Below, in pieces: positions 49,651 to 60,052 of a DNA stretch of 64,000 nt (the first letter of the stretch is position 1; each line of letters begins with the position of its first letter). The stretch comes from Soehngenia sp. Lineage in GTDB: Bacteria; Bacillota; Clostridia; Tissierellales; Tissierellaceae. A program made the position numbers and the translations under genes. The notes under the pieces were generated by a model. That model saw only the letters and a program-made list of their open reading frames with translations, searched no databases and was not told the DNA's origin. The stretch is from positions 1 through 64,000 of the forward strand of contig JAGXFX010000019.1 of NCBI GenBank assembly GCA_024637045.1, given 5' to 3'.

Positions 49651-50532
49651 CTATGCTCTTGGATGAGCCTTTTTGTAGACTTCTTCCGTATTATCTTTTG
49701 CTTCAGTCATGGTGTAAACCTGGGTTGATGCAATATCAGAATGACCCATAATTTCCTGAACCGTCTTGATATCGGCGCCATGACTCAATATATGTGCTGC
49801 AAATGAGTTTCTTAGAATCTGGGGAGTAATGCTCTTGCTCCCAGATACCTTGTCGGCATAAGCCCCAATTATTTTCCAAAGTCCCTGCCTTGTAAGCTTC
49901 TGTCCATTGTAATTTACAAACAATGGTGCTTCAACATTATTCTCATCCCTATAATTTTTCAAGTAATGTGCAATACTGTTAATTGCTTTTGAGCCAACAG
50001 GTATTCTTCTAATCCCATCATTCTTTGACAATATTATTGTACCCTTCGAAAGCAGTACATCACCAATCTTAAGGGAATTAATCTCAGATGCTCTCAATCC
50101 TGAAGAATAAGACAACTCCAGCAAGGCTCTGTCCCTGCAGCCTTTTGCATTGGTTAAATCTGGAACACTCATAAGTTTGGTTATTTCATCTTCAGTTAGA
50201 ATCTGAGGTGTTTTTTTCTCCTTTTTGGGAGGTTTCAAGTTTAGAGTAGGATTTTCTTTAACAATACTATTGTTAATAAGGTACTCGAATAGACATCTTA
50301 TACTTGCAAGATGTCTTGAAATTGTGGAATTAGATCTACCTTCTCTTTGTAACTGCAGCAAGTATCTTATTACATGTGTGTTATTCACATGATCTGCATT
50401 ATTGATGCCTGAATCATTCATAAAATTTCTAAATTTTACAATGTCACTTGTATAGGCTTCAACAGTGTTCTTGCTAAGCTTTTTTTGCTTTTCTATATAA
50501 CTTGTATAATCATCCATTATACCTTTTAACAT
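49651..50532 (-). CDS. xerD: XerD-like tyrosine recombinase with altered catalytic His
   Basis: 293 residues, the usual XerD length. The N-terminal domain ('SYIEKQKKLSKNTVEAYTSD', 'STISRHLASIRCLFEYLI') and catalytic Arg ('SSGLRASEINSLKIGD'), Lys ('IILSKNDGIRRIPV'), Arg, second His ('EIMGHSDIASTQVYT') and Tyr are present. The normally invariant His of H-x-L-R is Gln: 'ITPQILRNSFAAHILSHGAD', and the following R-H-S is R-N-S. The protein may be catalytically weakened or use a different activator. The context (NUDIX-xerD-pdp) is that of chromosomal xerD in Bacillota. SD AGGGGG. Confidence 0.85.
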   Translation of the reverse strand: MLKGIMDDYTSYIEKQKKLSKNTVEAYTSDIVKFRNFMNDSGINNADHVNNTHVIRYLLQLQREGRSNSTISRHLASIRCLFEYLINNSIVKENPTLNLKPPKKEKKTPQILTEDEITKLMSVPDLTNAKGCRDRALLELSYSSGLRASEINSLKIGDVLLSKGTIILSKNDGIRRIPVGSKAINSIAHYLKNYRDENNVEAPLFVNYNGQKLTRQGLWKIIGAYADKVSGSKSITPQILRNSFAAHILSHGADIKTVQEIMGHSDIASTQVYTMTEAKDNTEEVYKKAHPRA

Positions 50533-50556
50533 AGTATACCCCCTTTACTCCAAACT

Positions 50557-51093
50557 TTATTCTGCAAATCTATTTATCAAAGCCTGTATTCCAATAATGG
50601 TTTTTGCATCCATTATTTCTCCTCTTCGAAGCAGTTTCTCAACCTCTTTAATTGTATAGCTTTCAACGTCAATAAATTCACCTGATTCAAGCTCCTGTTC
50701 TCCAGGTTGTAGATTTTCACCGTAGAAAAGATACAACTTTTCACTGCTAAATCCCGGTGAAGTGTAAAACTCCATTAGGTACTCCAATTTTTCAGCTGAA
50801 TATCCTGTTTCTTCCTTTAATTCCCTATATGCAGTTTCTTTTGGTTCCTCATTAACCTCGAGCTTGCCTGCAGGTAGTTCCAGAAGAACTTTATCAGTCG
50901 CTTTTCTGTACTGCCTTACCAACAGTATTTTTTTGTCCTCAGTCAGTGCAACAATTCCAACACCACCTGGATGTTCAACAATCTCCCTCTTTGAATACTT
51001 CTTGTCAGGAAGTTCCACGGTGTCAATTCTAAGGTTTAAAATCTTGCCTTCATATATCCTGTCACACTTCATGGTTTTCTCTTCGTAAGTCAT
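50557..51093 (-). CDS. NUDIX hydrolase, ADP-ribose pyrophosphatase type
   Basis: 178 residues. The Nudix box G-x5-E-x7-REUxEExGU starts at 'GKLEVNEEPKETAYREL' and continues KEETGY. 'RVDTVELPDGK'-like N-terminal strands ('LRIDTVELPDKKYSKREIVE'), 'RQYRKATDKVLLELPAGKLE' and the downstream 'FYTSPGFSSEKLYLFYGENL' (the proline position used to define ADP-ribose specificity) match B. subtilis NudF. It hydrolyses ADP-ribose to AMP and ribose-5-phosphate. First gene after the recN-side promoter. Confidence 0.9.
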   Translation of the reverse strand: MTYEEKTMKCDRIYEGKILNLRIDTVELPDKKYSKREIVEHPGGVGIVALTEDKKILLVRQYRKATDKVLLELPAGKLEVNEEPKETAYRELKEETGYSAEKLEYLMEFYTSPGFSSEKLYLFYGENLQPGEQELESGEFIDVESYTIKEVEKLLRRGEIMDAKTIIGIQALINRFAE

Positions 51094-51136
51094 ACAGATC
51101 CCCCTAATTATTATTCCTAACTTTACATATACATTG

Positions 51137-51145
51137 ATTATAGCA
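51137..51145 (-). promoter_or_regulatory. Extended -10 promoter candidate for NUDIX-xerD-pdp
   Basis: On the - strand TGC-TATAAT about 45 bases before the NUDIX start, in the 60-base gap after recN. No clear -35. Identical in form to the element before miaB. Confidence 0.45.
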
Positions 51146-51153
51146 TAAAGACG

Positions 51154-52833
51154 CTATTTCTTCATCTTATTTGACATTTGCAGCATTTCAGTTGCATGTC
51201 TCCTTGTGGTTTCAGTTACCTCAACCCCTCCAAGAAGTCTTGCCAATTCATCTACCCTCTCATCTTCAAGCAAGCGTTCTACCTTTGTTATGGTACCTTT
51301 TTTATCCGATGCTTTTCTTATGACAAAATGTGTATCCGCAAGAGCTGCGATTTGAGGAAGATGAGAAATTGAAATAACCTGATGTGATTTTGATATCCTT
51401 CTGATCTTTTCTCCTACAACCTGTGCTGTCCTTCCACTGATTCCAGTGTCAATCTCATCAAATACAAGAGTTGGCATATTGTCCATATCAGCAAGTATAC
51501 CTTTGAAAGCCAGCATTATTCTGGACATCTCTCCACCTGATATAATCCTTGAAAGAGGTTTTAAATCTTCTCCTGGATTTGTTGAAATCAAAAATTCAAC
51601 CTTATCCACCCCTCTGTCAGTTGGCTCGCTAAGCATCTTAAAATCCACCTTGAATTTTACATTGTCCATATTGAGGGTAAGAAGCTCTTTTTCCATGTCC
51701 TTCTGTAGCTTTCCCGCTACTTTTTTTCTAATAATGCTCAGGTTCTCAGAGTCGACTAAAAGCTTCTTTTTGTTCGCAAGGATATCTTCCTCAAGTCTTT
51801 CAAGCTCCTTGTCAATATTGATCAGTCTGTCGTACCTCTCTTTTGTTACATCCCTATAGGATAATATCTGTTCAACAGATGATCCGTACTTTTTCTTGAG
51901 TGTATTGACAAGGTCAAGTCTTTCTCTAAGCAGAAATAGTTCTTCTTCATCAATATCCAAGCCTTCAATATATCCACTTATTCCACGGTACAATTCCTGC
52001 AATTCATATAACAGTGCCTGAAGACTGTTCCCATGTTCCTGAAGAATCTGATCATATCTGCCAGAATGACCGATTATTTCAATTGATTTTTGAATAAGAG
52101 AAATTGCAGCTGGACTCTCATAATCATCGTTCAATAATGCCAATGCCTGATATGACTGGGCAATAGTGTCTTTTAGATTATCAAGTCTCTTGAACTGCTG
52201 TTCAATAGCTTCATCGTCATCTTCTTTCAAGTGTGCATCATCAATTTCATCAATCTGGAATTTTAAAAGATCCAGCTCTCGCTCTCTTTCCTGTGATGAT
52301 ACTGAGAGGTCCTTTAGCTTTTTCTGAAGTTCTCTGTAATCTAAATATGCCTCCTTGATGTTACGAAGAAGTGTCTTTCCTTCTTGCGTTATCAAAGAGT
52401 CGATAATAATTATATGATTGCCAGTATCAAGAAGAGACTGGTGCTCATGCTGTCCAAATATGTCTACCATTCTATTGGTAAGTGTTTTTAAAATATTTAG
52501 GGTTAAAGGTCTGCCGTTTATTCTTGAAACACTGGGATATCCGTCTGAAATTTCTTTAGTAAGAATAAGAACATCACTCTGCTCATATCCCATTTCATAA
52601 AGTTGTTTCTGCAGATTTTCGTCAACAAAAAACATTGCTTCGATTACTGCCTTGTCCTGTCCAGAGCGTATCATTTCACGACTTGCCCTTCCACCCAGAA
52701 CCATTTCAAGTGCTTCAATGATTATGGATTTTCCGGAGCCAGTCTCTCCTGTGAGAAGATTTAGACCTTCAGTAAAATCGATTGTCAGATTATCAATAAT
52801 TGCGAAATTTCTAATCCTAAGCTCTTTGAGCAT
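51154..52833 (-). CDS. recN: DNA repair protein RecN
   Basis: 559 residues. An SMC-like repair ATPase recruited to double-strand breaks. It has Walker A GETGSGKS (residues 29-36), a long central coiled coil (about 155-370), signature 'ISGGEMSRIMLAFKGILADM' and Walker B 'PTLVFDEIDTGISGRTAQVV', followed by 'QVISISHLPQIAALADTHFV'. Complete and normal in size. It ends the long xseAB-ispA-OLE-oapA-tlyA-recN gene run; in other Bacillota recN is SOS-controlled, but no LexA box is visible upstream here. Confidence 0.95.
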   Translation of the reverse strand: MLKELRIRNFAIIDNLTIDFTEGLNLLTGETGSGKSIIIEALEMVLGGRASREMIRSGQDKAVIEAMFFVDENLQKQLYEMGYEQSDVLILTKEISDGYPSVSRINGRPLTLNILKTLTNRMVDIFGQHEHQSLLDTGNHIIIIDSLITQEGKTLLRNIKEAYLDYRELQKKLKDLSVSSQERERELDLLKFQIDEIDDAHLKEDDDEAIEQQFKRLDNLKDTIAQSYQALALLNDDYESPAAISLIQKSIEIIGHSGRYDQILQEHGNSLQALLYELQELYRGISGYIEGLDIDEEELFLLRERLDLVNTLKKKYGSSVEQILSYRDVTKERYDRLINIDKELERLEEDILANKKKLLVDSENLSIIRKKVAGKLQKDMEKELLTLNMDNVKFKVDFKMLSEPTDRGVDKVEFLISTNPGEDLKPLSRIISGGEMSRIMLAFKGILADMDNMPTLVFDEIDTGISGRTAQVVGEKIRRISKSHQVISISHLPQIAALADTHFVIRKASDKKGTITKVERLLEDERVDELARLLGGVEVTETTRRHATEMLQMSNKMKK

Positions 52834-52847
52834 AAGCCTACCTCCAT

Positions 52848-53645
52848 CTATTTAAGGTTTTCGTGTGCCTTGTTAATAACCTGGTCTATTGTATTTTCAT
52901 CAATACGAGCCTCCTCTTTCTTAAGGAGAAGTAAAAACTCAATATTTCCAGTGGTTCCCGTTATAGGTGAAAAGGTGAGTCCATGAGGGTAGAATCCAAT
53001 TTTTCCACTAAAATCAAGAACGTTTTCTATTACCTCTTTATGTGTTGATTTCTCTCTTACTATACCTTTTTTCCCGACCTTGTTCCTTCCAGCTTCAAAT
53101 TGCGGCTTTACCAAAGCTACAACTGATCCTTCATCCTTTAAGAGTCTATAGGCAACTGGCAGTATAAGTTTGAGACTAATAAAACTTACATCAATTGAAA
53201 TAAAATCGATCTTATCCGGAATGGACTCGGTATCCATATGCCTTATATTGGTTCTTTCATGTACTACAACACGATCATCGCTACGAAGCTTCCAATCAAG
53301 TTGTCCATAACCAACATCCACTGCATAGACTTTGCTGGCACCTGACCTAAGCATGCAGTCAGTGAACCCACCCGTCGATGCACCCATATCCATACATACA
53401 GATTCATCAAGTTTTAGTTCAAATTCCTCCATTGCCTTTTCAAGCTTCAGTCCGCCTCTACTAACATACTTCAGTGGATTGCTTCTGATCTTGATTTCTA
53501 TATCATCCGAGTACTTTTCACCAGGTTTATCTACTCTGGTTTCTCCAATATAAACAGAACCTTCCATTATTATTCTTTTTCCCTTTTCCCTTGACTCAAC
53601 AAGTCCCTTTTCAAAGAGAATAACGTCTGCCCTTTTCTTTTCCAT
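52848..53645 (-). CDS. tlyA: TlyA family rRNA 2'-O-methyltransferase / S4-domain protein
   Basis: 265 residues. An N-terminal S4 RNA-binding domain ('KRADVILFEKGLVESREKGK') and FtsJ-like methyltransferase fold with 'CMDMGASTGGFTDCMLRSGA' (SAM motif), 'VYAVDVGYGQLDWKLRSDDR' and 'LVKPQFEAGR'. Annotated in this family as 16S/23S rRNA cytidine-2'-O-methyltransferase or hemolysin A. It starts one base after the oapA stop, with SD in the oapA end; the open frame continuing to 53741 overlaps oapA and is rejected. Position between oapA and recN is typical of OLE-bearing loci. Confidence 0.92.
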   Translation of the reverse strand: MEKKRADVILFEKGLVESREKGKRIIMEGSVYIGETRVDKPGEKYSDDIEIKIRSNPLKYVSRGGLKLEKAMEEFELKLDESVCMDMGASTGGFTDCMLRSGASKVYAVDVGYGQLDWKLRSDDRVVVHERTNIRHMDTESIPDKIDFISIDVSFISLKLILPVAYRLLKDEGSVVALVKPQFEAGRNKVGKKGIVREKSTHKEVIENVLDFSGKIGFYPHGLTFSPITGTTGNIEFLLLLKKEEARIDENTIDQVINKAHENLK

Positions 53646-53646
53646 T

Positions 53647-54261
53647 CTATTTCTCCTTGTCCTTCCTGTCCTTGGATTTCTTTTTAGTTTTAAAAATTTC
53701 CACTTTAAAAACTTTCTCGGCAAAATTGACAATTCTTGCAACCTGATAGATTATGTGCTCGTGGTGATATTCTGCTATTGATTTTCCAACACCCTTGCCG
53801 CCTACTGTAAGAGCAGCAGTAAAGGCAGTCAACAGAATTGTAAGTATTGTTCCATCCGCAATCCCAACAATCACTACAACTCTGAATACAATACTTGTTG
53901 CTACGGCGCCTGAAATAATTCCACTGATATCTCCAATAACATCATTGCAAAAGTTACTTACCTGACTGGAGTTTCTTACAAGTTTTATCGCAGTTCTCGC
54001 TTCATCTATTTTGTTGGCAGCCATTGCATGAAATGGCCTTTCACTAGCAGCTGTAACTGCTATACCTATTGTATCAAATAATATACCTGTAAATACAATA
54101 ATAAGAAGTATTAAAAACGCAAAAAGGACATCAAGATTTTGCACCAGATTTTCTGCAATTATAGAAATTCCGATAGCAAGCAAAAACGTCCAGAAGGTTA
54201 TAAATAATACCCATTTCATATTGTACTTTATGTAAAAACTTACATCATCCTTCTTAGCCAT
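53647..54261 (-). CDS. oapA: OLE-associated membrane protein OapA
   Basis: 204 residues. Four hydrophobic segments (about 17-36, 43-69, 112-133, 138-154) are followed by a strongly basic tail (FKTKKKSKDRKDKEK), fitting an RNA-binding membrane protein. The D-x-x-x-D motif reported as essential in OapA is present as Asp107-VIG-Asp111 in 'CNDVIGDISG'. The gene lies directly downstream of the OLE RNA and upstream of tlyA and recN, the established order for this family. OapA anchors OLE RNA to the membrane; the complex is linked to tolerance of alcohols, cold and magnesium stress in Bacillus halodurans. 'LFDTIGIAVTAASERPFHAM' resembles part of CNNM/DUF21 transporters. SD GGGGGAT. Confidence 0.88.
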   Translation of the reverse strand: MAKKDDVSFYIKYNMKWVLFITFWTFLLAIGISIIAENLVQNLDVLFAFLILLIIVFTGILFDTIGIAVTAASERPFHAMAANKIDEARTAIKLVRNSSQVSNFCNDVIGDISGIISGAVATSIVFRVVVIVGIADGTILTILLTAFTAALTVGGKGVGKSIAEYHHEHIIYQVARIVNFAEKVFKVEIFKTKKKSKDRKDKEK

Positions 54262-54281
54262 TCCTATCCCCCTATATAGAT

Positions 54282-54308
54282 AAAAAAGCTGATAGCTCAG
54301 CTATCAGC
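54282..54308 (-). terminator. Terminator at the OLE RNA 3' end
   Basis: On the - strand GCTGATAGC-TGA-GCTATCAGC (54308-54288) is followed by TTTTTTA, 21 bases before the oapA start. Confidence 0.85.
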
Positions 54309-54896
54309 CCAATAATGTGGTAGTAATCTGAGTAAATCTTACGGCTTCAGGTCCAGCAGGATTTCCCTGGAAAGAGCTGCCTGTCGCCAGCTCAGCGGTT
54401 TCCCTTTAATCTCTCCACTGCCCTGTTGCCAAAGGCAGAACTGGATTACCACTTAGTCCGCACTGTAATCCTCCGATTACCTCATAATGAACAGTCTAGG
54501 AGTTTTCCTCCACAGCCAGTCTATTCCCTAGCCTCTTTTGCAGATTAGATTTCGATAACAAAACCGGGCAAAACCGGGCCCTGGTTAAACCAAGTCGAAC
54601 TTATCATCCGCGCTACTCCACTCAAGGCAGGCTACTCTGCACTTTTAATTAAAAATTTATGTCTTGCAGGTTTATCACTGCAGGGTACTATTTATCACCC
54701 TGCAATGTCTCCACGAAGGTAGGGTCTCGCCTGCATGCCATTGCAGATCGCCCCATCCTTCTTACTCCTTATGAAGACCCACGACTGGGCGTCGCAAGCC
54801 ACACACAAAGAACTTCATCGATATGCCCTTTGACGGATTTTTAGCCCCGCCTTCAAGAATAGTTGTGCTGACTAGAATACTGTACCACTAGTTACT
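54282..54896 (-). ncRNA. ole: OLE RNA (ornate, large, extremophilic)
   Basis: A 675-base stretch without a gene separates ispA from oapA. On the - strand it begins a few bases after a promoter, contains GGGGCTAAAAATCCGTCAAA near 54848-54829 and many short complementary segments, and ends in a terminator. Its length of about 615 bases, orientation and neighbours (xseA-xseB-ispA upstream, oapA-tlyA-recN downstream) match the known OLE RNA locus. I recognised it by context and length; a covariance-model score would settle it. The RNA is thought to act at the membrane bound to OapA. OapB and OapC partners are not encoded in the window. Confidence 0.85.
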
Positions 54897-54902
54897 AAGC
54901 TG

Positions 54903-54931
54903 ATTATATCATGCTTTCAGTTAAATATCAA
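54903..54931 (-). promoter_or_regulatory. Predicted OLE RNA promoter
   Basis: On the - strand TTGATA (54926-54931), 17-base spacer, TATAAT (54903-54908), just downstream of the ispA stop. It places the RNA start near 54896. Confidence 0.7.
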
Positions 54932-54936
54932 TATTT

Positions 54937-55791
54937 CTAGACTTCCCTGTGGATAAGTTCTCTTGTAAGATTCTGAAAAAATTTAGTGTCAAGATGCTTA
55001 AGATTCTGGAGAATGGATATTGCTCCATCGCTTAATTCTCGAATCATTTCTCTGGTTTCATCTTCACCATGAAAACTGAGGTAAGTACTCTTGTCAATTT
55101 CACTGTCCTCCTGGTAATCCAGAAGATCGTCCTGCAGTTGATAGGCAATTCCAAGCTTTTCTCCGAATAACCTAAGTGCGACAACATCATCATCAGAAGC
55201 ACCACCTGCTATGGCTCCAGCCAGGATACTCGCTTGGATCAATGCTGCTGTTTTCCCTCTGTACATCTGAAACAACTGGTCTTCGGACATTTTAACATCT
55301 TCGCCTTTTATGTCGAGTACCTGACCGCCTATCATTCCTGAATGTCCGGAAGCTTTTGCTATTTCATATCCAGCTCTTGCTGCTCTGTTGTTGTTGCTGG
55401 ATATTGCTTCTTTAAAGATGCTCTGAAAGGCCAGATTCAATAGAGCGTCTCCCGTAAGTATTGCCATTGCCTCACCAAATTTCTTATGACAGGTTGGCTT
55501 GCCTCTTCTAAAATCATCGTTATCCATAGCTGGAAGATCATCGTGAATCAAGGAATATGTATGAATCATTTCAATTGCCATGGCATATGGCATGGCATCG
55601 TGTATATAGCTATGGTACATTTCGTATGCCTTTAAAGTCATAAGTGGTCTTAATCGTTTACCACCAGTGAAAAGACAGTACTCCATGGTTTCCTGAAGGT
55701 GATTTTCATAGTTGTTCCCAGCCTTTATTGTCTCCTTCAAATAATGATCTATCAAGTCAAGATACTCCTTAAAGTCTTTAAAACTCGTCAT
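54937..55791 (-). CDS. ispA: Polyprenyl diphosphate synthase (farnesyl/geranyl type)
   Basis: 284 residues. A head-to-tail prenyl transferase of the IspA class, condensing IPP with DMAPP/GPP. First Asp-rich motif 'HDDLPAMDNDDFRRGKPTCH', second 'QLQDDLLDYQED', with 'GGKRLRPLMTLKAYEM' and 'MIGGQVLDIKGEDV'. The DDxxxxD form of the first motif is typical of short-chain bacterial FPP synthases. Its start overlaps the end of xseB by 14 bases. It would use the IPP/DMAPP made by the IspH encoded at 34.4-36.4 kb. Confidence 0.92.
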   Translation of the reverse strand: MTSFKDFKEYLDLIDHYLKETIKAGNNYENHLQETMEYCLFTGGKRLRPLMTLKAYEMYHSYIHDAMPYAMAIEMIHTYSLIHDDLPAMDNDDFRRGKPTCHKKFGEAMAILTGDALLNLAFQSIFKEAISSNNNRAARAGYEIAKASGHSGMIGGQVLDIKGEDVKMSEDQLFQMYRGKTAALIQASILAGAIAGGASDDDVVALRLFGEKLGIAYQLQDDLLDYQEDSEIDKSTYLSFHGEDETREMIRELSDGAISILQNLKHLDTKFFQNLTRELIHREV

Positions 55792-56032
55792 CAGGTTCCT
55801 CCGCTAACATCCCAGGAAAATCAACTTCTTCTACATCAATTCCCTTATCTAGAATCATCTTCACGTCACCTTCTGCTTTAGTCAGTATTTCATTGCAGTG
55901 ATCATACACTTTCATTGCTTCTTTAAACTTCTTAATGGTTTCATCAAGTTTAAGATCATCTTTTTCAAGATCATCCAACAACTCCTGTAACAATTTCATT
56001 CCTTCTTCATATGTAAGCTCATTGGTATTCAT
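55778..56032 (-). CDS. xseB: Exodeoxyribonuclease VII small subunit
   Basis: 84 residues. 'LTYEEGMKLLQELLDDLEKD', 'LKLDETIKKFKEAMKVYDHC' and 'NEILTKAEGDVKMI' make up the helical XseB fold. Several copies wrap each XseA to form the exonuclease that digests single-stranded DNA from both ends. The start at 56032 is set by GAGGAG in the end of xseA, which it overlaps by 14 bases; the open frame to 56080 is read-through of xseA sequence. Confidence 0.93.
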   Translation of the reverse strand: MNTNELTYEEGMKLLQELLDDLEKDDLKLDETIKKFKEAMKVYDHCNEILTKAEGDVKMILDKGIDVEEVDFPGMLAEEPDDEF

Positions 56033-57233
56033 TCTTCTCCTCCTCTGTATCAATAACCACCACATCTGCCTTGCCATCAATCATCCTGATATAAAGACGT
56101 TCATCCTTATTCAGCTCAGAAACAGCTTTTCTCACATTTCCCTTGTGGTCTGTAATAATTCCGTATCCCTTTGCCAAAACACGTTCAGGATTTGCAATAT
56201 GCAGTTTGTTCTCAAATGCAAAAAGTTTTCGTTCTTCCCTCATTAGCTTCTTTTCGATATTGTGCTGGATTTCTCTTAAAACATTGTCAATATCCATTTT
56301 TCTGTCCATTATTCTCTGTTCAGGACTTAGGAAAGACAAGGTCCTGTTGTGTGAAACTAGAGTTCTTCGTTCATCAGTCAGTGATCTTTCAACAATGCTT
56401 TCTACTGTCCATCCCATACTTCTAAGTTCTTCCAGCAAACTTTCCTTATCTGGCACTGCAAGCTCTGCTGCTGCAGAAGGAGTTGAAGCTCTTACATCCG
56501 CTACGAAATCAGCAATTGTAAAATCTGATTCGTGACCCACTGCGGATATAACAGGAGTCTTTAGCCCAAAGATACATCTGGCTAGTTTCTCATCGTTAAA
56601 TGCAAACAATTCTTCCATGGAGCCTCCTCCACGTCCCGTTATTATTAGGTCTATGTCATCCCTGTCATCCAGCATCCTTAGACCCTTGATAATGTTTGAT
56701 GGAGCTCCCTCGCCTTGTACAAGCGCCGGATACACCACTATTTTAACCGGGGGATATCTTCTCTTTAAGATGCTTACTATGTCCCTTATGGCCGCTCCTG
56801 TGGATGATGTTACAACACCAATGGTCCTTGGAAGGGCTGGCAATTCTTTCTTAAACTCTGAGTCGAAAAGACCTTCCTCTTCCAGTTTTTCCTTAAGAAG
56901 ATTGAATGCCCTGTACAAATCTCCGATTCCCTGCTTTTCCATCTTTCGTACATATACCTGGTAGCTTCCGTCTTTTTCGTAAACAGAAATACTACCGGTT
57001 ACGGTTACCTTAGCGCCATCCTTGGGTCTGAAATTCACATTGACATTATCGCTATTGAACATAACACATCTGATTCGGCTTTTTTCATCCTTCAAGCTGA
57101 AATACATATGCCCGCTATAATGGTGCGTGTAATTGGATATCTCACCCTCAATTTGGATTGAGTTAAGAAGCATATCACTTGAAATCAGCTTTTTTATGTA
57201 TTGATTGACTTCACTTACCATTAGTGGTCTCAT
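56019..57233 (-). CDS. xseA: Exodeoxyribonuclease VII large subunit
   Basis: 404 residues. An OB-fold ('IQIEGEISNYTHHYSGHMYF', 'SLKDEKSRIRCVMF') leads to the catalytic domain with 'TIGVVTSSTGAAIRDIVSIL', 'LIITGRGGGSMEELFAFNDE' and 'ISAVGHESDFTIADFVADVR'. A long helical region carries the XseB sites. The start at 57233 lies three bases past the upstream gene's stop and uses GGGAGG from it; translation is coupled. Confidence 0.95.
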   Translation of the reverse strand: MRPLMVSEVNQYIKKLISSDMLLNSIQIEGEISNYTHHYSGHMYFSLKDEKSRIRCVMFNSDNVNVNFRPKDGAKVTVTGSISVYEKDGSYQVYVRKMEKQGIGDLYRAFNLLKEKLEEEGLFDSEFKKELPALPRTIGVVTSSTGAAIRDIVSILKRRYPPVKIVVYPALVQGEGAPSNIIKGLRMLDDRDDIDLIITGRGGGSMEELFAFNDEKLARCIFGLKTPVISAVGHESDFTIADFVADVRASTPSAAAELAVPDKESLLEELRSMGWTVESIVERSLTDERRTLVSHNRTLSFLSPEQRIMDRKMDIDNVLREIQHNIEKKLMREERKLFAFENKLHIANPERVLAKGYGIITDHKGNVRKAVSELNKDERLYIRMIDGKADVVVIDTEEEKNEYQ

Positions 57234-57235
57234 GG

Positions 57236-58177
57236 CTATTCCTCCCATCCTTTTTTGCAGGCTGCAAGGTATGCAACACCAACACCATTGTCAGTTGACA
57301 AGGTCTTCTCTGGAAAAATGACTTCATTGTCATAAATCCCATTTTCCAGACTTTTTCTGATTATGGAGTTTGCTGAAACTCCCCCTACAACATATATCTT
57401 ATCTACAGAATTATCTTTTAGTTGGGCTTTTATTAATTCCCTGATCATCCCTCCAAGATGCACAAACATAGTGTAGATTACATCTTCTTTTCTAAATTCA
57501 CCATCACTGAGAAGCTTCTTAAAAAGATTCTCGTATCCTGATAAATTAATCCAGCCATCTGTCGATTTAAACTGAAGTTTCTTGACAATCTTATCTCCAT
57601 TTCCGGCTATTCTGTCAAGCTCCATTCCACATGGAAAATCAATGCCCAAATACACGCCAATTCTATCTATCAGTTGCCCCATGCTGATATCAAGCGTTCC
57701 TCCAACAGAGTGGGTCAAGAGATTCTCTTCCCCATTTCTTGTATATACAACTTCAGTTGTACCTCCTGAAAGATGCAAGGACAGTGAAGCTTCGTCTTCT
57801 GTATTTCCGAGGATGCAACACCCAATATGCCCTTCCTGATGTGAAAATCTCTTTAAGGGTGCACCGAGTGATTTTGAAAGAATTCTGCCAGTATTTTCAC
57901 CTGCTAAAAATACAGGCATATATGATCCTTCAATTGTCCTTGGTCTTGTACTCACTCCAATCGCCTTTATCAATGTCAAATCAGTGGATATTTCTTCCAG
58001 AAGCTCAGGCAGGTTCTTTATATGTTGAAACAGGGCCTCCTGCTGTCTGAGCCCCTTCTTGCCGCTCTCAACAAAAAGAGCACTTCTTTTGTCTTCAATT
58101 ATATTCCCAAGCTTATCTACAATCGCCAAAGAAGTGGTGTAATTGCTTGTATCGATTCCCAGATAAAGATCACTCAT
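57236..58177 (-). CDS. TsaD/Kae1-like ASKHA protein (second-type, not canonical TsaD)
   Basis: 313 residues. 'LYLGIDTSNYTTSLAIVDKL' is the ASKHA phosphate-1 loop, 'SHQEGHIGCC' carries the metal-binding H-x3-H of the Kae1/TsaD family, 'LSLHLSGGTTEVVYT' is phosphate-2 and 'VGGVSANSIIRKSL' the adenosine motif. It is shorter than TsaD (about 340) and has 'VSTRPRTIEGSYMPVF' where TsaD has the V-T-x-G-P-G-L segment. This subgroup in Clostridia is found beside xseA-nusB and its role is not established; t6A synthesis probably uses another TsaD elsewhere. Overlaps nusB by eight bases. Confidence 0.82.
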   Translation of the reverse strand: MSDLYLGIDTSNYTTSLAIVDKLGNIIEDKRSALFVESGKKGLRQQEALFQHIKNLPELLEEISTDLTLIKAIGVSTRPRTIEGSYMPVFLAGENTGRILSKSLGAPLKRFSHQEGHIGCCILGNTEDEASLSLHLSGGTTEVVYTRNGEENLLTHSVGGTLDISMGQLIDRIGVYLGIDFPCGMELDRIAGNGDKIVKKLQFKSTDGWINLSGYENLFKKLLSDGEFRKEDVIYTMFVHLGGMIRELIKAQLKDNSVDKIYVVGGVSANSIIRKSLENGIYDNEVIFPEKTLSTDNGVGVAYLAACKKGWEE

Positions 58178-58580
58178 CCTTATTCATGGACCTTACAAAT
58201 CCACCAAGTACTCCGTTTACATATTTATATGACTCATCTGTACTGTACTTCTTTGCAATCTCAATAGCTTCGTTGATTGAAACCTCAATTGGAATATCCT
58301 TCATATGTTGAATTTCAAATATCGCCAGCCTTAGAGTTGCCAGATCCACCTTTGCAATCCTATCCAACAACCATCCTTGAAGATTCTGCTGGATTGAGTT
58401 ATCAATTTCTTCCCTATTCTCCAATACACCTTCCACGATTGCTTCGATGTAATCTGTTTCACCTTTATCAAAAGGAAAATTTTCCAGATACATATCAAGA
58501 TTTTCTCTGGTGAATTCCTCATTGCTGTCCATCTGAAACAACAGCTGCATGGCTCCTTCTCTTGCTTGTTTTCTTCCCAT
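58170..58580 (-). CDS. nusB: Transcription antitermination factor NusB
   Basis: 136 residues, all helical. 'GRKQAREGAMQLLFQMDSNE' opens the protein and 'VDLATLRLAIFEIQHMKDIP', 'IEVSINEAIEIAKKYS' and 'KYVNGVLGGFVRSM' close it. NusB binds boxA RNA with S10 in rRNA antitermination complexes. SD GGAGT. It follows the Asp23 gene by 26 bases, as in many Clostridia. Confidence 0.94.
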   Translation of the reverse strand: MGRKQAREGAMQLLFQMDSNEEFTRENLDMYLENFPFDKGETDYIEAIVEGVLENREEIDNSIQQNLQGWLLDRIAKVDLATLRLAIFEIQHMKDIPIEVSINEAIEIAKKYSTDESYKYVNGVLGGFVRSMNKDE

Positions 58581-58606
58581 TTTTTACTCCTTAAAATGTA
58601 TTTCGA

Positions 58607-58993
58607 TTATAATCTAGAATCAGATTCTTCGTTTTTTGTTCTGCTGATTCCCTCTACATAAACATTTACAGTTTTTACGTCTAGATCTGTCATGTTCTCA
58701 ATAGCTTTTTTTGTCTCTTCCTGAACCTTCAGACTTACATCATTAAGCTTGGCTCCGTATTCAAGAAGGAGGTGCATTTCAACAGAAACTTCCTTGTCTC
58801 TAATATCCACCTTTACTCCCTTGCCAGGATTCTTCTTGCCCAAGAGTTCAGAAATTCCTCCAGCAAGGTTGCTGCTCATACCAACTACTCCTTCGACTTC
58901 CATTGCAGCTGTTCCTGCAATCGTTGCAATAACATCATTGGAAATCTGTATGCTTCCGTTTTCAATATATTCCATGTGGTCTTTTTCAGTCAT
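58607..58993 (-). CDS. Asp23/Gls24 family envelope stress protein
   Basis: 128 residues. The DUF322/Asp23 pattern is clear: 'GSIQISNDVIATIAGTAAME', 'EGVVGMSSNLAGGISELLG', 'VKVDIRDKEVSVEMHLLLEY' and 'VKTVNVYVEGI'. Members are abundant alkaline-shock or membrane-associated proteins (B. subtilis YqhY lies in the equivalent place before nusB and affects acetyl-CoA carboxylase). SD AGGGGTG and a good promoter lie upstream, making this the first gene of the long nusB-to-recN run. Confidence 0.9.
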   Translation of the reverse strand: MTEKDHMEYIENGSIQISNDVIATIAGTAAMEVEGVVGMSSNLAGGISELLGKKNPGKGVKVDIRDKEVSVEMHLLLEYGAKLNDVSLKVQEETKKAIENMTDLDVKTVNVYVEGISRTKNEESDSRL

Positions 58994-59027
58994 ATTGACA
59001 CCCCTCTGTATTTAATACGTATAATAC

Positions 59028-59056
59028 ATTATATCAAAGCCGGATATCCTTTACAA
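59028..59056 (-). promoter_or_regulatory. Predicted promoter of the asp23-nusB-xse-ispA operon
   Basis: On the - strand TTGTAA (59051-59056), 17-base spacer, TATAAT (59028-59033). Confidence 0.65.
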
Positions 59057-59072
59057 TACGGCTTGATTCCAG

Positions 59073-59100
59073 AGAAAAAGCCTAAAGCTAAGCTTTAGGC
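59073..59100 (-). terminator. Terminator after the acidic CD1247-type gene
   Basis: On the - strand GCCTAAAGC-TTA-GCTTTAGGC (59100-59080) followed by TTTTTCTC. Confidence 0.85.
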
Positions 59101-59106
59101 ATCTGA

Positions 59107-59481
59107 TTATTCCTCATCACTATCTTCATCACTGTCTTCGTCTTCGAATAATTCATTATCCTCGTCATGACCTTTGAAGCAATTGCAACCTTCATCATCA
59201 CAACAGTCATCAAAATCTTCGAAATCAAAATCCTCGTCAAAGTAGAAGTCTTCCTCATCTCCGTAGACGTCATCTTCTACGTCAGCAAGGTCCTCATCAA
59301 TAAAATTAACATACTCTTCAAGATCAATCTGATCCTCGACTACTTCTTCCATTACTTCTGCAAATTCCTCAATAGTTTCAACAATCGCCAATAGAAGCTT
59401 TCCTTCTTTGGTGGATTCATCGATTCCCAGGCCGTCTGCAAGACCTTTTAGATAAGATACCTTTTGAAATAAAAATTCCAT
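59107..59481 (-). CDS. Acidic protein with CD1247-type N-terminal domain
   Basis: 124 residues. The first 65 ('FQKVSYLKGLADGLGIDEST', 'VDDQIDLEEY'-like helices with 'NFIDEDLADVEDDVYGD') match the short domain known from Clostridioides CD1247. The remainder is an extreme run of Asp/Glu with a Cys cluster 'DDCCDDEGCNCFKGHDEDNE'. The tail could bind metal ions or mimic nucleic acid; no function is established. It lies 13 bases after efp with SD AAGGAGGGG, so is co-transcribed with it, and is closed by a terminator. Confidence 0.8.
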   Translation of the reverse strand: MEFLFQKVSYLKGLADGLGIDESTKEGKLLLAIVETIEEFAEVMEEVVEDQIDLEEYVNFIDEDLADVEDDVYGDEEDFYFDEDFDFEDFDDCCDDEGCNCFKGHDEDNELFEDEDSDEDSDEE

Positions 59482-59494
59482 TTTAACCCCTCCT

Positions 59495-60052
59495 TTAAAC
59501 TCTGGACAGATATTCTCCGGTCCTTGTGTCTATTTTTATTTTATCACCTATGTTCACAAAAAGCGGAACATAGATGGTAACACCAGTTTCACATACTGCA
59601 GCTTTAGTAGCTCCCTGTGCAGTATCTCCCTTAACTCCAGGCTCCGTCTCTGTTACTTCAAGCTCAACAAAGTTTGGAGGTGTAACATCAAAAGCCTTAC
59701 CTTGATAGAATTTTATTGTAGCTGTATCATTCTCTCTCAGGTATTGTATTGCTTCCTCAACTGAATCATGCTCCAGTGGAATCTGCTCATAGGTCTCATT
59801 GTCCATAAAATAATATAATTCACCATCTGAATAAAGATATTGCATTTCCTTGGTTTCAATAATTGCCTTTTCAAATTTTTCTGAAGGATTGAATGTAACT
59901 TCCTTGAATCCCCCGTTCATTACATTCCTAAGCTTTGTTCTAACAAATGCAGCTCCCTTGCCAGGTTTAACGTGCTGGAAGTCTACTATTTGAAATACAT
60001 TGCCATCCATTACAAATGTTATTCCATTTCTAAAATCTCCCGCTTGTATCAT
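59495..60052 (-). CDS. efp: Elongation factor P
   Basis: 185 residues, standard length. Three beta-barrel domains; the loop '[17 protein letters not shown]' carries the Lys that is modified in other species to stimulate proline-proline bond formation. '[20 protein letters not shown]' and the C-terminal '[17 protein letters not shown]' are diagnostic. It has its own promoter (60109-60137) and SD AGGAGGG. Confidence 0.97.

Follow-up and report, generated by a model that had tools for sequence, protein, structure and literature searches.

A full-length OLE RNA gene in a Tissierellaceae genome, ending in a hairpin shared by its clade

We find that a gene-free region of about 615 bases on the minus strand of the window (the whole 64-kb stretch of DNA that was analysed) is very probably an OLE RNA gene, intact and full-length, from a Gudongella-like bacterium of the Tissierellaceae. 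When the whole window was searched with cmscan and Rfam 15, it matched the OLE covariance model RF01071 over the entire length of the model with 470.1 bits (E = 7.7e-135), against a gathering score of 50 bits, confirming the initial annotation, which had read the region as OLE RNA and had proposed the covariance model as a check. RF01071 was the sole Rfam family above its gathering score in the window, in which ARAGORN found no tRNA, and the genome assembly (93% complete, 27 contigs) contains one OLE match. The coordinates originally assigned to the locus, 54282–54931, span the sequence from the −35 element of the promoter to the last T of the terminator. The features of the locus and its neighbours are as follows.

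56019–57248, minus strand: xseA, upstream neighbour (TIGR00237 over cut-off)
55778–56035, minus strand: xseB, upstream neighbour (TIGR01280 over cut-off)
54937–55791, minus strand: ispA (farnesyl diphosphate synthase), upstream neighbour (NF045485 over cut-off)
54903–54931, minus strand: predicted ole promoter, with −35 TTGATA at 54931–54926, 17 bases, and extended −10 TATAAT at 54908–54903 (11 of 12 consensus matches)
54301–54904, minus strand: OLE RNA by covariance model (RF01071, positions 1–616 of 616)
54282–54896, minus strand: predicted OLE transcript of about 615 nt, its start placed some 7 bases beyond the −10 and its end at the T run
54869–54888, minus strand: conserved 5′ segment GTGGTACAGTATTCTAGTCA, the anchor for locus comparison
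54282–54310, minus strand: predicted intrinsic terminator, an 11-bp hairpin (54310–54286) plus T run (sequence, folding, clade conservation)
53647–54261, minus strand: oapA, OLE-associated protein A, 204 aa, predicted CNNM-like membrane protein (position, relatives beside OLE, fold)
52848–53645, minus strand: tlyA, downstream neighbour (TIGR00478 over cut-off)
51154–52833, minus strand: recN, downstream neighbour (TIGR00634 over cut-off)

The locus is a new full-length member of an already known RNA class, genuine but ordinary. Since 2,822 hits in Bacillota had been reported by 2024 (PMC11332333, in excerpt), one more is of low interest, and the earlier statement that each new intact locus matters was too strong: thousands of genomes are already known to carry OLE, and a single locus adds little. 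Interest in this one is raised slightly by its conserved terminal hairpin and by an orphan copy of that hairpin in a relative, both described below.

The window locus agrees with the RF01071 OLE genes of Halalkalibacterium halodurans and Clostridium acetobutylicum in its full-length match, its conserved 5′ segment, ispA directly upstream and oapA directly downstream, as well as, in the case of H. halodurans, in having its own promoter. Unlike them, it has, in the covariance alignment, a P7 region that falls 13 nt short of the Rfam consensus and a poorly paired P8 (stem names throughout are our own assignment, guided by published papers), together with a 3′ terminator hairpin that is shared by its clade. 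The fragment containing P7 has a folding z of −3.4, and free folding of the P9 stretch at 54550–54640 gave a z of −0.5, no improvement over shuffles. Because the RF01071 alignment includes P7 to P9 as well as the P12.2/P13 region, the window OLE is of the full-length type and not variant 1 (TANB77) or variant 2 (RF39) of Fernando and Breaker 2024; according to excerpts of that paper (PMC11332333), the variants have the conserved core in common with the window RNA and differ from it in these regions and in OapB, which the window's genome encodes.

For comparison between loci, at least 120 stretches from a pattern scan of genome contigs, 14 from a family search and the window itself gave 135 OLE loci; three copies with identical first 500 OLE bases were removed, leaving 132 distinct loci among the matches listed. 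The CTAAAAATCC of the A-rich L4, a predicted dimer contact, is intact in the window OLE, and GGGCCC in the middle of its P9 is the candidate counterpart of the self-complementary (palindromic) L9.3 kissing loop. GGCC or GCGC is found mid-P9 in 72 of the 75 loci with identifiable flanks (of the 132, among the matches listed), compared to a mean of 10.6 in shuffles.

The gene order on the minus strand, recovered through family matches and the identification of oapA, is xseA, xseB, ispA, OLE, oapA, tlyA and recN, which is the arrangement that had originally drawn attention to the region. The T run ends 20 bases before the oapA start codon. Among the matches listed, ispA lies directly upstream of OLE in 86 of the 132 compared loci. 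The OLE 3′ end could be placed in 123 of the 132 (nine were dropped); an OapA match follows downstream in 111 of these 123, no more than 200 bases from OLE in 105 of the 111, and the remaining 12 loci comprise eight that end too soon and four that have none (all among the matches listed). Among the matches listed, the closest named locus, L028, is from Gudongella sp. M17C-05, with OapA at 89% over 190 residues, TlyA at 85% and RecN at 74%. Gudongella is a member of the Tissierellaceae, and a genome sharing the OLE sequence of L028 belongs to the same genus as the window's genome.

As a side observation on the segment between OLE and oapA, the word TACATA turns up in the 75 bases that follow the OLE 3′ end. 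It is present in 42 of 120 loci (L022, L074 and L089 are examples; among the matches listed), compared to about six when shuffled. By eye, the loci that bear it belong to Bacilli and some Clostridia, and it is perhaps a processing site or an element of the oapA leader.

The protein encoded by oapA has no NCBIfam match, no match to PDB sequences up to E 1 and a Pfam CNNM match below the cut-off (20.7 bits against 28.4, E = 3.5e-4); its identification rests on its position, on relatives beside OLE elsewhere and on its fold. The motif D-x-x-x-D, which the initial annotation put forward as a mark of OapA, is present as D107 and D111, and all 107 of the OapA proteins aligned share these residues and G110. 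A structural model (pLDDT 85.8, from 36 sequences) has long helices at residues 15–42, 45–71, 98–132 and 137–165, and the hydropathy windows and the model both fit four long helices, in keeping with the four hydrophobic segments described earlier.

In VIA-align comparisons of this model, the top four rows are all CNNM/CorC: 7m1t_A (Z 13.1, rmsd 2.6, 133 aligned), 7m1u_A (Z 12.8, rmsd 2.5, 131 aligned), 7cfg (Z 11.7, rmsd 6.2, 129 aligned) and 7cff (Z 11.4, rmsd 6.2, 132 aligned), followed from the fifth row onward by unrelated folds at Z 7.0 and lower. Foldseek returned nothing at E 0.001 or better for OapA, its best row being at 8.6e-3 and its first four rows CNNM. Because a Z of 13 can arise by chance between helical proteins, we place weight on the gap in Z below the CNNM rows, on the sub-threshold Pfam CNNM match and on the literature, where a CNNM-like nature of OapA is described (PMC11332333, in excerpt). 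The model therefore points to a CNNM-like fold, matching the membrane domain of MtCorB and of bacterial CorC among the CNNM/CorC/MpfA Mg2+ transporters. Unlike those transporters, OapA has no CBS or CorC_HlyC match and its CNNM match stays below the Pfam cut-off; helix 15–42 is also an addition, since the aligned range starts at residue 41–44.

Upstream of the RNA, TTGATA-N17-TATAAT with an upstream TG is the top-scoring of 26 promoter-like sites in 50000–60000, and since shuffles of that stretch yield 26.8 such sites, the match by itself proves little. Support comes from its placement. We scored a promoter-like pair as at least 9 of 12 matches with the −10 ending no more than 45 bases from the conserved GTGG, in the 126 distinct loci with enough upstream sequence (six of the 132 were dropped, among the matches listed). 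Such a pair is found upstream of OLE in 108 of the 126 loci (among the matches listed), compared to a mean of 19.5 and a largest count of 30 in 200 rounds of mononucleotide shuffles, and a mean of 17.9 and a largest count of 27 in 100 rounds of dinucleotide shuffles. The stretch 46–91 bases upstream has a pair in 22 of the 126 loci, and about the same farther stretch read on the opposite strand has one in 13 (both among the matches listed). With placement kept to this degree against the shuffles, a promoter of its own is a common trait of the sampled OLE genes, supporting the promoter that had been proposed just downstream of ispA. This suggests that a promoter at the very 5′ end is typical of OLE genes and not a peculiarity of H. 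halodurans, for which an own ole promoter, though within an operon, had already been reported (PMC9723947, in excerpt). As the H. halodurans gene has its own promoter yet lies in an operon, a longer transcript is possible at the window locus too. Separately, a pairing of the OLE 5′ end with the terminator arm, spotted by eye through AUCAGCUU directly behind the −10, was dropped because these bases precede the predicted transcription start.

At the other end of the RNA, the hairpin at 54310–54286 with its T run has a folding energy of −15.1 kcal/mol (z −3.8), and none of 200 shuffles was as good, bearing out the clean hairpin and T run that had been noticed at the OLE 3′ end; the 10 kb from 50000 to 60000 contain 10 terminator-like sites, with 5.1 expected. 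The RF01071 match stops within the 5′ arm of the hairpin, where the model has an unpaired tail and no hairpin. Among the matches listed, 35 of 111 loci have a terminator-like hairpin in the OLE–oapA interval (shuffle mean 0.6, largest 4, 50 rounds), and none was detected, with G-T pairs but no mismatch allowed, in the other 76, so that a terminator is not a general feature of OLE.

Within this set, GCTGATAG marks the OLE 3′ end in 22 of 123 loci (among the matches listed), the hairpin being GCTGATAG...CTATCAGC. On a tree of the 123 OLE sequences (among the matches listed), these 22 loci group together, requiring one change and with no member lacking the hairpin, and choosing loci by the 5′ arm thus hid no exceptions. 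An alignment of the 22 (21 distinct rows) shows all nine hairpin pairs forming in every sequence: six are constant, two change on a single side, and one is replaced on both sides (C-G to U-A) in three sequences. The invariance of the 5′ arm follows from the loci having been chosen by it; in the 3′ arm, which was not chosen for, six of eight bases show no variation and a seventh almost none. By comparison, 44% of the columns in the OLE body are invariant across these 22 loci. The pattern GCTGATAG-N3..10-CTATCAGC occurs once in the window, with 0 expected, and in 44 of 201 loci (loci of one genome overlap), 43 times behind an OLE 3′ end, the exception being L192. Since 78 stretches among all viral contigs also carry it, the hairpin sequence is rare but not unique to OLE. 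Across 181 kb of clade loci, the only other perfect T-run hairpin common to two loci has the arm AACCCTCTG and comes from two Alkaliphilus.

We tentatively suggest that in the clade of Tissierellaceae, Alkaliphilus and relatives, OLE may end in a hairpin (GCUGAUAG...CUAUCAGC) whose sequence is constrained beyond the needs of a terminator, either as a protein-binding or regulatory module of the mature RNA or as an attenuator that fixes the OLE:OapA ratio. In the literature searched, whose scope excludes the founding OLE papers, no title or abstract concerns an OLE terminator or its conservation. Lying outside the Rfam model, the conserved 3′ hairpin is a concrete, testable element for this OLE clade. 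The location of the hairpin, with OLE on one side and the oapA start codon 20 bases away on the other, and a stem sequence common to the clade, unlike the plain terminators in the same loci, would suit a regulated attenuator responding, for instance, to OLE folding or to OapA, through which OLE would control oapA in cis; with 76 of 111 OLE loci (among the matches listed) carrying no detectable hairpin, we consider this unlikely. As a separate observation, two further sets of OLE loci each have a shared hairpin of their own near the same place, one TACGCAC-like (seven loci: L024, L031, L049, L055, L063, L078 and L113) and the other GCCCACG (four loci: L040, L077, L099 and L114).

In the reading that we prefer, based on the sequence elements at the two ends, RNA polymerase would start near 54896 and mostly stop at the hairpin near 54282, yielding an RNA of about 615 nt. 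The 20 bases in front of oapA leave no room for a separate promoter, so oapA mRNA would arise from leaky read-through or from longer operon transcripts begun further upstream. The initial description of a complete OLE locus with its own promoter and terminator is therefore supported, the terminator by its sequence, with the qualification that a longer operon transcript may also be made.

Such a longer transcript is central to an alternative in which OLE is mainly processed from a long operon RNA begun further upstream, the promoter and hairpin being minor. The neighbours do lie on one strand and nearly abut, and in H. halodurans the cluster forms one polycistronic RNA (PMC12265935, in excerpt) and OLE is processed at its 3′ end (PMC11332333, in excerpt); against this stand the promoter placement kept in 108 of 126 loci (among the matches listed), the terminator hairpin conserved in the window's OLE clade and the own promoter reported for H. 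halodurans ole (PMC9723947, in excerpt), which together make this alternative distinctly improbable.

The window OLE would, by analogy with known OLE RNAs, act within a ribonucleoprotein. Excerpts of published work describe OLE RNA as dimeric (PMC12286853), with OapC binding its k-turn (PMC9723947) and bS21 binding at P6 (PMC12054373), and in the literature OapB binds P12.2/P13 and OapA tethers OLE to the membrane. The window OLE would accordingly dimerise and carry OapB at P12.2/P13, OapC at the k-turn and bS21 at P6, while being tethered to the membrane by OapA. Following published work, we infer that OLE would most likely serve as a scaffold RNA for assembling or gating the CNNM-like OapA, within a membrane device that acts in Mg2+ and stress homeostasis and that MpfA-type proteins could replace.

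Across 28 genomes of the family, 15 carry both OLE and OapA and the remaining 13 carry neither; G017 has a second, weak OapA match, which overlaps its CNNM protein. All 13 OLE-less genomes have tlyA behind ispA, separated by 11–75 bases in 12 of them and by 366 bases in G022; the tlyA starts used here are extrapolations from the alignment. In G022, an orphan hairpin with a T run (L192:1208–1229, G022:C19) lies in this gap, about 75 bases behind the ispA stop. OLE is absent from the two cmscan matches obtained in L192 up to E 10, and OapA was not found in G022 in the family genome search (assembly 88% complete, 7% contamination). The orphan hairpin is probably a fossil of a lost ole-oapA pair; defective ole genes in OapA-less organisms had earlier been noted in a general way (PMC11332333, in excerpt). 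With OLE-oapA in 15 of 28 genomes, absent from 13 and one terminator left over, the family provides a natural experiment on OLE replacement. That the window locus is itself a decaying copy is extremely improbable, for although loss is real in the family and one relative retains the hairpin alone, the window has a full-length OLE match with its conserved stretches intact and an intact OapA with its invariant residues, and both OLE and OapA are present in 3 of 3 congeners.

Additionally, the genome encodes an OapB of 95 aa (G000:C23:11661–11945), which matches 7k9b, the solved OLE-associated protein B, with E = 1.5e-14, and has no Pfam match. Its neighbours are genes that we take, from reading, to be adk and infA. 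OapB relatives are present in 26 of the 28 family genomes (14 of the 15 OLE genomes and 12 of the 13 OLE-less ones), so that the presence of OapB says little about OLE. The search for both partners that had been suggested for the rest of the genome thus recovered OapB; for OapC (YbxF, L7Ae) it gave 0 matches in the assembly, from which its usual slot is missing. L7Ae is present in 23 of 28 family genomes, including 3 of 3 congeners, in one of which it lies between genes that, on reading the translations, are presumably rpoC and rpsL. As rpsL is missing from the assembly as well, the lack of an OapC match is uninformative, and the idea that OapC is absent was set aside on that ground. bS21 is present, on the window's own contig.

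Each of the 13 OLE-less family genomes contains at least one protein of the MpfA type (over the Pfam cut-off, OapA excluded), and this type is missing in 4 of the 15 genomes with OLE (G001, G004, G011 and G019), two of which are from assemblies less than 90% complete. These counts agree with the published anticorrelation between OLE and MpfA (PMC11332333, in excerpt) but are too small to add to it. The window's genome has one full-length protein of this type, with CNNM, CBS and CorC_HlyC domains (G000:C12:16554–17126; L126:1022–2329), and a full-length MpfA/CorC-type protein therefore coexists with OLE in this organism.
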